This document shows, one piece after another, positions 15,927-35,495 of a stretch of DNA of 35,495 nt. The notes under the pieces were generated by a model. That model searched no databases. It was not told the origin of the DNA and worked only from the letters and a program-made list of their open reading frames with translations. A program made the position numbers and the translations under genes. Within the stretch, counting starts at the first letter, position 1; each line of letters starts with the position of its first letter. Source of the DNA: Planctomycetota bacterium. GTDB taxonomy: Bacteria; Planctomycetota; Phycisphaerae; WQYP01. Where the stretch lies: the NCBI GenBank assembly GCA_021790475.1, contig JAJYDU010000008.1:1-35495 (forward strand). The letters run 5' to 3'.

Positions 15927-17300
15927 TTACCTGGATCCCGGGAACATCTGCTGCATGGAGACGCCGCCGCGCGGCGCGGCCGGTTCACTTGCGGGCGGCG
16001 CCGGGGTGTTGCCGTTGGTACCGGAATTCCCCGGCGGGACCGCCGCCGGTTGCGTCGTGGAACCGCCCAGCGGCGTCAAAGCGGGTTTCAAAAACAGATA
16101 ATACAATCGTCCCTTGCTGTATTCATAACCGGCCTGTGTTTGTGCCTCCGGTCCAATACCCATGTAAATGTCGGCCCGACCCGCCGCCCGAATCGCTCCG
16201 CCGGTGTCCTGGTCCAGCAAAAAACCATTGAACGGCTGGATGTTTCCGGAGGTGTCCGGCATCTGGGCGGTCACAAACGTGATCGCCGCCCGCGGGAAAA
16301 TACTCTGGTAGGGCGGCGCTTCAATGGTTTTGTCCGTGGCCAGCGTGCGGTGCGCTGTTACTTTCACGCCCAGCGATCCCAGCGGCCAGTGCGCCGGATT
16401 GTATACCTTGAGAAAAGCCATGAATTTATTGTGCAGAATGATATCTTCCACCTGCCGCGGATGAATTTGAAAATAGGCTTCGATGGCCGAAAGCGAAAGT
16501 TTGCGCGCGCTGATCTTCCCCGCTTTCATCAATGCCATCCCCAGCCCGTGGTAGGTGCGTCCATTGTCGCCGGCATAGCCGATGGTCATCACCTGGCCGT
16601 TGGTGAGAATCACCTTGGCCGACCCCTGGATTTCAGCTACGTAGGCGTCCAGCGGATTGCTGAACCATACCAATTCCCGACCGCGCAACAAATGTTGCCC
16701 GACGATTTTGGCGCGCGACGGATACGGACGAATCGTTCCATTCGGCAACTTCTGGCCCAGAGTCTGCCCGGTGATCGGATTGCTAACCAGGTCTGGCGGG
16801 CGTTTGTACACCGGATAGCGGTATTCCGGGGTTTGGCTCAGACTGCCGTAAAGAATCGGCGTGTAATAGCCGGTGAACCACACGTCGCCCCGGCTGTCAT
16901 ATCCCTTGGCCGTGTATACATCATAACGTTGCACGATGTTTTTCTGGAATTGCGCCGCCGTAGGTACGTTCCGGAGCATGTAGCGGAAATCATCAAGCGT
17001 GTTGAGCTCCTGCCGATGCGTAATCGGCCCGTCGGGAAAAAAAAGCCGGCTCGTAGACGTCCGCATGTACTGAATTGAACGGTCAATCGCCCGGATCAAC
17101 CCTTTCTTGTCCAGGAAAGCCGACTCCATGTTCGGATACTCCCCCGGAGCCAGTTTGCGCAGCCCCCAGTGGCCCGGGGGCAATTGCCGGTCCACATTTG
17201 TGCGCGGCGCCTTAATGATGGTGTTGTTATGCGTGCCGCATCCGGCCAGCAGAACCGATATGCCCAATAGACCCGTCAGCCAAACCAGTCGTCGTTTCAT
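15927..17300 (-). CDS. mltA: MltA-type membrane-bound lytic murein transglycosylase (lipoprotein)
   Basis: Start at ATG 17300, preceded by AAAGGA six bases away; the frame open upstream lacks a ribosome-binding site. The 457-residue product begins MKRRLVWLTGLLGISVLLAGC, a lipoprotein signal with C21 lipidated, so it should sit in the outer membrane facing the periplasm. The MltA domain is seen in GDVWFTGYYTPILYGS and RGRELVWFSNPLDAYVAEIQGSAKV, and the 3D domain in LLDQDTGGAIRAAGRADIYMGIG, which contains the catalytic Asp region. It cleaves peptidoglycan to 1,6-anhydro muropeptides. A Pro/Ala/Gly-rich tail (about 420-457) is an addition relative to E. coli MltA. It supports the presence of peptidoglycan and an outer membrane. 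Confidence 0.93.
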   Translation of the reverse strand: MKRRLVWLTGLLGISVLLAGCGTHNNTIIKAPRTNVDRQLPPGHWGLRKLAPGEYPNMESAFLDKKGLIRAIDRSIQYMRTSTSRLFFPDGPITHRQELNTLDDFRYMLRNVPTAAQFQKNIVQRYDVYTAKGYDSRGDVWFTGYYTPILYGSLSQTPEYRYPVYKRPPDLVSNPITGQTLGQKLPNGTIRPYPSRAKIVGQHLLRGRELVWFSNPLDAYVAEIQGSAKVILTNGQVMTIGYAGDNGRTYHGLGMALMKAGKISARKLSLSAIEAYFQIHPRQVEDIILHNKFMAFLKVYNPAHWPLGSLGVKVTAHRTLATDKTIEAPPYQSIFPRAAITFVTAQMPDTSGNIQPFNGFLLDQDTGGAIRAAGRADIYMGIGPEAQTQAGYEYSKGRLYYLFLKPALTPLGGSTTQPAAVPPGNSGTNGNTPAPPASEPAAPRGGVSMQQMFPGSR

Positions 17301-17403
17301 AGAGTTTCCTTTACCGCCTTGCCCGGACCGATAAAATCTTACAGAACCAGTATAGCGGAAAATATCCGCAATCAACAAAAGAATTACCAGGTGTTCCCGC
17401 CAC

Positions 17404-17534
17404 GGGTGTGGCCGTATTTTTTGGCAAAGCTGGTCCCAGCCGCCTCGTTAGCCGAAAAAAGGAATTCTCTTCATAGAGGTGAACACCGTGTTAAACCGGT
17501 TTTTGCATTGTTGCCAAAAAAAACGGCCACCCCC
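17404..17534 (-). mobile_element. MITE-like element, copy A (131 bp)
   Basis: It has inverted ends, GGGTGTGGCC (17404-17413) and GGCCACCCCC (17525-17534), each followed inward by a T- or A-run and TTGGCAA/TTGCCAA. It is flanked by an exact 8-bp direct repeat, CCCGCCAC, at 17396-17403 and 17535-17542. It matches copy B (35180-35309) in the opposite orientation along its whole length. No coding frame is supported, so it must be mobilised by a transposase elsewhere. It occupies much of the 374-base gap between mltA and the phosphodiesterase gene, where I see nothing else. Confidence 0.85.
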
Positions 17535-17674
17535 CCCGCCACGCCGCCACGTGAGGCGGGAGGAAAGGTTGATCCGGGAGGTTGAAGGGTTATCCGAATC
17601 AGTGTAATTATCATTTTTAGAACGGCGGAAAATGGCGATGAACCGCCGGTACAATAAAGGGAACGGACGGGACT

Positions 17675-34620: not shown

Positions 34621-34652
34621 GAGCCTGTCTCAATAGAGATAGACTCTTTATT
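34621..34652 (+). terminator. Intrinsic terminator after tRNA-Ala
   Basis: GAGCCTGTCTC, loop AATA and GAGATAGACTC form an 11-bp stem with two G-U pairs, followed by TTTATT. It is about 90 bases after the tRNA and overlaps the stop of the convergent nuclease-family gene by a few bases. Confidence 0.6.
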
Positions 34653-35055
34653 CCGGGTTTTCACCGCCGATTTCCTCAAGAACGTGCTCGGCGACATAAA
34701 CAGGCACATTGCCGGCCACGCCCAGGGCGATCGCATCGCTTGGGCGGCTGTCCACTTCAATGCAATGGCCGTTGTGACGGATGACCAGGCGGGCGAAAAA
34801 CGTGTGTTTTTGTAAATCGTTGATCACAATGCGCTCCAGTTTTCCGCCAAGCTGCTCAATTACATTGGCCAGTAGTTGGTGGGTCATGGGGCGGGGAAAC
34901 GGCGTTCCCTTGAGGCGGTGGTCAATCGCCAGAGCCTCCGCCGAGCCGATTACGATAGGTACCACGCGTTCGCCATCAACTTCCTGAAGGAAGATGAATT
35001 GCTGGTCAGACGTTTCCGTGATGATGATACGTTTGAGTTTAACCTGCACAGCCAT
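34648..35055 (-). CDS. Bifunctional-nuclease-family protein (DUF151)
   Basis: ATG 35055, with GGGAG eight bases upstream, gives 135 residues; the longer frame upstream runs through the MITE. The domain pattern is complete: MAVQVKLKRIIITETSDQQFIFLQEVDGERVVPIVIGSAEALAI (1-44), then HQLLANVIEQLGGKLERIVINDLQKHTFFARL and VDSRPSDAIALGVAGNVPVYVAEHVLEE (about 99-126), the SRPSDAIAL motif being diagnostic. Proteins of this family show nuclease activity in some organisms. It lies between tRNA-Ala and the MITE copy B. Confidence 0.93.
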   Translation of the reverse strand: MAVQVKLKRIIITETSDQQFIFLQEVDGERVVPIVIGSAEALAIDHRLKGTPFPRPMTHQLLANVIEQLGGKLERIVINDLQKHTFFARLVIRHNGHCIEVDSRPSDAIALGVAGNVPVYVAEHVLEEIGGENPE

Positions 35056-35179
35056 CAGACGAACTCCCGAACTTGAAATAACCGGATGGGTCGCCGGCCA
35101 TCCGAACGGATTGTTCACCGGTATAGTATACGCGACGGTACGGCCGGAGGATATTTTCTGGGGAAAGTCAAAGTGAAGA

Positions 35180-35309
35180 GGGTGTGGCCGTTTTTTTGGC
35201 AACAGGACAATAACTGGCTTAACACGGTGTTCACCTCTATGAAGAAAATTCCTTTTTTCGGCTAACGTGGCGGCTGGGACCAGCTTTGCCAAAAAATATG
35301 GCCACACCC
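35180..35309 (+). mobile_element. MITE-like element, copy B (130 bp)
   Basis: Ends GGGTGTGGCC (35180-35189) and GGCCACACCC (35300-35309) are perfect inverted repeats. The flanks are AGTGAAGA (35172-35179) and AGGGAAGA (35310-35317), an 8-bp duplication with one mismatch. It matches the reverse complement of copy A along its length. It separates the nuclease-family gene from the IS end and has no coding frame of its own. The gap 35056-35412 holds little else. Confidence 0.85.
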
Positions 35310-35369
35310 AGGGAAGAAGCGCGCCTTATTTTCTGAAAGGACTCGCTATAGGGTGGAGGTACGGTCTGA

Positions 35370-35495
35370 GAGCCTGTGTGAAAAGTCTTTAAAAGCTGAT
35401 ATTCTATAGGACATGACACGGACGTCTTATCCAACGGACCTCACGGATGAACAATGAGGGCTGATTCAGCCCCTGATACCACCGGCCTTGCCGGG
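35370..35495 (+). mobile_element. Left end of an IS5-type insertion sequence (partial)
   Basis: GAGCCTGTGTGAAAAGTC at 35370-35387 has the form of an IS5-group terminal repeat. It precedes, by 26 bases, the start of a transposase frame. The right end lies outside the window, so the size and boundaries are unknown. Confidence 0.6.
35413..35495 (+). pseudogene. IS5-type transposase N terminus interrupted by TGA (partial)
   Basis: ATG 35413 opens MTRTSYPTDLTDEQ, then TGA at 35455-35457, then in the same frame GLIQPLIPPALPG to the edge of the window. The family (DUF4096-type N terminus) reads YPTDLTDEQWxLIxPLIPP, so the TGA occupies the place of the invariant Trp codon TGG. Other genes of this window use TGA as a stop, so this is probably a one-base nonsense change in a decayed copy, or a sequencing error. 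The body of the gene is not visible. Confidence 0.65.

Follow-up and report, generated by a model that had tools for sequence, protein, structure and literature searches.

Copies A and B in the window, by which we mean the whole 35,495-bp stretch analysed, are copies of a hitchhiking MITE of about 130 bp that carries no gene. Our main reading, to which we assign a probability of roughly 0.88, is that the transposase of an ISKra4-type IS (p-MULT 4, prokaryotic Mutator-like) moves this MITE in trans to sites just upstream of sigma-70-type promoters. The window is one complete contig (C50) of a planctomycete MAG of 2.68 Mb and 214 contigs, which is about 91% complete.

The MITE family and its insertion sites

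Copy A (131 bp, 17404..17534, plus strand) contains no transposase ORF and stands at 97% to the family consensus. Its left terminal inverted repeat, GGGTGTGGCCGTATTTTTTGGCAA (17404..17427, plus strand), has no mismatch to the end motif and its right one, GGGGGTGGCCGTTTTTTTTGGCAA (17511..17534, minus strand), has one, while comparison of the flanks gives an 8-bp target duplication, CCCGCCAC, at 17396..17403 that is repeated exactly at 17535..17542. Copy B (130 bp, 35180..35309, minus strand) aligns in the inverted orientation relative to A; its left-type inverted repeat (35286..35309, minus strand) has no mismatch to the end motif, and its target duplication reads AGTGAAGA on the low-coordinate side (35172..35179) and AGGGAAGA on the high-coordinate side (35310..35317), with one mismatch between the two. 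The two copies align at 92% and their end organisation is identical. The positions and flanks given for both copies in the original prediction are thus borne out, and so is its view that they represent two separate insertions, since the flanks differ between the copies and each has target duplications of its own. We also agree that the IS end near copy B appears to be a coincidence, because the reading frame there looks, by eye, like an unrelated IS5-type transposase. This frame starts with MTRTSYPTDLTDEQ... about 100 bp from copy B, occupies positions 35350-35495 up to the contig end and appears by eye to have an in-frame TGA where a tryptophan is usual.

Searching the own genome of this MAG (G000) with copy A, we gathered 17 near-complete copies of 127-136 bp, mostly intergenic and upstream of genes, in addition to several partial or variant copies. 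The mean pairwise identity of the 17 copies is 0.93, and their identity to the consensus ranges from 0.89 to 0.99. The inverted end common to the family, GGGTGTGGCCRTWTTTTTTGGCAA, measures 24 bp in an end-motif scan; the original prediction had recognised inverted ends correctly but put their length at 10 bp. When up to three mismatches are allowed, this motif occurs 41 times in the own genome, versus 0 times for a reversed-pattern control. With copies and inverted ends seen genome-wide, the proposal of a multicopy MITE without internal transposase holds: the element is short, has inverted ends, lacks a transposase and is flanked by target duplications, and empty sites exist for it.

Among the 16 copies that have both ends, the flanks of length 8 are identical in 5 and differ by at most one mismatch in 9, whereas mispaired flanks of the same length were identical in 0/240 comparisons and within one mismatch in 1/240. 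Exact duplications of 9 bp were found at three further copies, so the 8-bp length expected at the outset is correct for a part of the family and is joined by a 9-bp class. Where a terminal base of a copy has been lost or altered, the repeats appear to be 7 or 10 bp long; copy C167 has no target duplication, and copy C207b only a shifted, imperfect one.

For nine copies, we then fused the two flanks, retaining a single duplication, and looked for the resulting sequences in G001, the only other genome of the genus. The joined flanks match across the junction for four of the nine copies (C170 at 93%, C207a at 91%, C64 at 87% and C159 at 85%), showing that the element is absent at four orthologous sites, one of which is resolved to the base: C170 gives a clean read-through, indels of 1 bp lie close to the junction at C207a and C64, and at C159 a 7-bp gap adjoins a repeated TCCACAA motif. 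Because the sequence of G001 is uninterrupted at these four positions, the copies are real insertions. The flanks of copy A lie 25 kb apart in G001, a synteny break at the site, and those of copy C20 are recognisable there around a diverged junction.

The same observations bear on whether the repeat has been domesticated as a structural RNA or a regulatory module and is retained for its function upstream of genes, a possibility that had been raised in the form of a conserved noncoding RNA always beside the same genes. Folded as a single strand, the 131 nt of the repeat give a z-score of -4.3, the interior is conserved and the position is promoter-proximal, all of which such a module could explain. 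The fold, however, consists mostly of the inverted ends, as in any MITE; an Rfam scan of the window returned two tRNAs only and nothing at the MITE copies; the flanks and the neighbours differ at each copy; and the repeat is absent from the four G001 sites, with no full-length MITE detected in 60 relatives. A conserved RNA is highly improbable on this evidence, and we retain the reading as a MITE.

ISKra4-type ISs with the same ends

Several IS families, ISL3, ISAs1 and IS66 among them, are credited with 8-bp duplications, and on these grounds the three had been named as candidate parents that might move the MITE in trans. The duplication length speaks for them, but at least four genomes (G000, G009, G015 and G017) have the end sequence of the MITE a few bases after the stop of ISKra4-type genes, and duplications of 8-9 bp surround those same ISKra4-type ISs. 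We thus regard the involvement of ISL3, ISAs1 or IS66 as extremely improbable and consider that the MITE is very probably moved by an ISKra4-family transposase found in relatives.

In G002 and G017, the left ends of the IS read GGGTGTGGCCATATTTTTTGGCAC and are followed within about 50 bp by the ORF start ATGGACAAGGAC; the right ends read ...GCCGCTTGATGCCAAAAAATATGGCCACACCC, with the TGA stop of the transposase directly adjoining the inverted repeat. The assemblies break about 100 bp inside these IS copies, as they do with multicopy ISs. Exact duplications of 8 or 9 bp were found at seven left/right flank pairs, four in G002, one in G017 and two in G015; together with the 24-bp inverted repeat, they agree with the inverted repeats of 18-39 bp and duplications of 8-9 bp described for p-MULT elements (PMC3942029). 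The best profile for the transposase is NCBIfam NF033572 (ISKra4), with ISLre2 a distant second. Matches to NF033572 come from G000 and relatives, with fragments in G015, C97 and G009, and reach E-values down to 1e-48 in the relatives, although all of their scores are below the curated cut-off of 205 bits, the best being 165.

The own genome holds pieces of such elements. Contig C97 carries a 3' fragment of the transposase that is 92-97% identical to the C-terminus of the G009 protein and runs into the MITE end sequence GGGCGTGGCCATATTTTTTCGCAT, and C93 carries a fuller ISKra4-type IS with 4 mismatches in its ends and an in-frame TGA. A full IS with the same ends is therefore present in sister genera, while an intact transposase with matching ends was not found in the own genome, where the C97 copy is a fragment and the C93 copy is interrupted; a search of viral contigs for the transposase found none. 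An exact end-pattern scan of GTDB contigs returned six stretches, all of them from planctomycete MAGs. Since the ISs of sister genera and the C97 fragment carry the ends of the MITE, mobilisation in trans by an ISKra4-type IS, as the original prediction had supposed for a parent of another family, would be the natural reading. MITE and parent have their ends in common and no convincing interior likeness: similarity stops soon past the inverted repeat (after about 30 bp with G015), which gives no support to an origin of the MITE by simple deletion within one of these parents.

Two ORFs, which overlap at a conserved TTTTTCCCCC run, share the coding sequence of the ISKra4-type transposase. In four elements, namely G018 (L121), G024 (L120), G000 C93 (L064:3947-5535) and G015 C270 (L086), ORF2 is in the +1 (or -2) frame, and the arrangement may represent a programmed frameshift, unlike the -1 frameshift reported for ISMich2.

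Other elements share these ends. The Phycisphaerales MAG Emb289P4bin17 (G010; for example L173, L174, L176 and L177) contains a distinct family of MITEs, 161-163 bp long, with GGGTGTGGCCATTTTTTATGGCAA ends and a different interior that is strongly palindromic. Its ends are matched 82 times in that genome, and the copies that were read are flanked by duplications of about 8-9 bp. Elements of 93-147 bp that share the end motif but have other interiors were seen in G009 and G016 (for example L178, L179, L185 and L187), suggesting that MITEs arose repeatedly from the same end type. Within the own genome, an element of 121 bp (L069:995-1115, C25) combines these ends with an unrelated interior; its flank duplication is imperfect (6/8), and it hints at a second small MITE family. 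Longer elements of about 220-340 bp, at L076:1528-1863 (C17), L024/L023 (C32) and L025/L022 (C27), carry the right half of the MITE behind a different left part and are possible progenitors or chimeras, and a 5'-truncated MITE copy (L064:5512-5682, C93) lies about 20 bp outside a degenerate ISKra4-type IS, beyond its right end.

Insertion at a fixed distance from promoter-like sequences

To assess the position of insertions, we scored matches to TTGACA-(16-18)-TATAAT out of 12, scanning outward from each element end; the promoters reported here are such consensus matches, that is, predictions and not measured starts. A coarse first test at the published distance of 13-17 bp gave no signal, and the peak lies at 25-29 bp. 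At this distance, scores of at least 8/12 are present in 11/34 flanks of the own MITE family, compared with 0-3 in its other 5-bp bins, in 11/51 flanks of the G010 MITE family and in 9/27 flanks of the parental ISs; the other distance bins across the three sets hold 0-5 flanks. As the peak was first noticed in the own family, only the G010 and parental-IS sets count as independent tests.

The single boxes follow the same pattern, with significant enrichment in each of the three sets. Hexamers resembling the -35 box at 25-29 bp occur at 8.5, 9.0 and 11.6 times background in the own family, the G010 family and the parental ISs, respectively, and those resembling the -10 box at 47-53 bp at 4.6, 8.8 and 19.2 times background. 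Pooled over the sets, the enrichment relative to other distances is 9.5-fold for the -35-like (p = 1.2e-13) and 8.7-fold for the -10-like hexamers (p = 1.2e-14). Per copy, 14/17 members of the own family score at least 8/12 at 20-32 bp from one or both of their ends and 3/17 fall short. A fixed promoter side was ruled out, as promoter-like sites face both ends of the element. Thus, the element tends to land at a fixed distance before sigma-70-like promoters that read away from it, in line with the insertion upstream of sigma-A promoters described for p-MULT 3 elements and part of the ISKra4 group (PMC3942029).

Most copies are intergenic and upstream of genes, where promoters are common, so the signal might reflect the mere survival of intergenic insertions placed at random with respect to promoters. 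Such survival predicts a broad excess, and not a peak at 25-29 bp in three sets with the neighbouring bins near background; selection could sharpen the near-side edge of the peak but not its far side. We regard random placement as unlikely and favour directed insertion upstream of promoters. The uninserted sites of G001 are informative here: the promoter-like sequence is intact at two of them (C170 and C64), almost intact at that of C207a and altered in part at that of C159, and because it is present at these sites, it predates the insertion.

Both copies in the window lie outside a gene and upstream of a promoter-like site. A predicted sigma-70-like promoter faces away from copy A (17349..17378, minus strand, 8/12 to consensus), with a -35 box TTGTTG at 17378-17373, an 18-bp spacer and a -10 box TATACT at 17354-17349, leaving 25 bp between the element end and the -35 box. 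Downstream of it lies a gene for an MltA-type lytic transglycosylase with MltA and 3D domains (15927..17300, minus strand; Pfam PF03562, 1e-43), with a likely ATG at 17300 and an AAAGGA ribosome site; copy A therefore plausibly sits just upstream of the predicted mltA promoter. The site facing away from copy B (35125..35153, minus strand) scores 7/12 and is weaker than that of most copies, combining a clear -10 box, TATACT at 35130-35125, with a weak -35 box, TATCCT at 35153-35148; a gene with a bifunctional-nuclease domain (34648..35055, minus strand; PF02577, 1.1e-37) follows it, with an in-frame ATG at 35055.

We propose the following route for the MITE. A transposase from a parental IS, now present as fragments or unassembled in the MAG, would act in trans and bind the paired, near-symmetric 24-bp ends. 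The element would then be inserted by a staggered cut of 8-9 bp near the upstream edge of a promoter-bound RNA polymerase, in either orientation, leaving about 25-29 bp between its end and the -35 box. A -35 box that starts 25-29 bp from the end would place the junction about 60-65 bp upstream of the transcription start. The transposase may thus contact promoter-bound RNA polymerase, as has been proposed for TnGBS (PMC3942029). By landing before promoters, the element would spread without breaking genes, a probable benefit.

Relation to known elements and implications

The ISKra4-group ISs of p-MULT 4 (Guerillot et al. 2014, PMC3942029) resemble the parent in transposase profile, in inverted repeats of about 24 bp, in duplications of 8-9 bp and in having promoters on either side, as is reported when the two inverted repeats are nearly perfect. 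They differ in that this MITE has no transposase, in that the relatives score below the curated cut-off of the profile, and in the split of the relatives' transposase into two frames, a trait assigned in that work to the ISMich2 group. The ISMich2-group ISs, also p-MULT 4, share a two-ORF transposase that needs a frameshift and duplications of 8-9 bp, but ORF2 is here in the +1/-2 frame and not the -1 frame; insertion upstream of promoters is not reported for them (PMC3942029).

TnGBS/ISLre2 elements (p-MULT 3) also insert at a fixed distance upstream of the -35 box with an 8-bp duplication, although their insertion is oriented through unequal ends. Their distance is 15-17 bp, versus 25-29 bp here from the element end or about 17-20 bp without the duplication, and the wording of one paper suggests that the published distance may exclude the duplication (PMC4701971); as the definitions may differ in this respect, we do not claim a new spacing. 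Other bacterial MITEs are likewise short and gene-less with inverted ends and target duplications, and a review of them does not mention ISKra4 (PMC10969869). In the open-access literature searched, we came across no account of MITEs derived from ISKra4 elements or of bacterial MITEs positioned by promoters. MITEs as a type of element, the family of the parent and the preference for promoters are each known separately, and our results extend the last of these to non-autonomous elements.

Descriptions of bacterial MITEs often give neither a known source nor a target rule, and here the source family is identified. The MITE copies form a natural record of transposase insertion sites. With short gene-less elements placed upstream of promoters, the proposed link between Mutator-like transposases and RNA polymerase, for which larger ISs and ICEs have so far supplied the evidence, could be tested on a simple substrate. 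More tentatively, and as a possibility we would rate below even odds, one end type may have spread several unrelated MITE interiors across this planctomycete family through ISKra4-type transposases guided by promoter-bound RNA polymerase. Gene-less inserts would thereby mark promoters at a constant distance upstream, and they may insulate these promoters or take the place of their upstream control regions.
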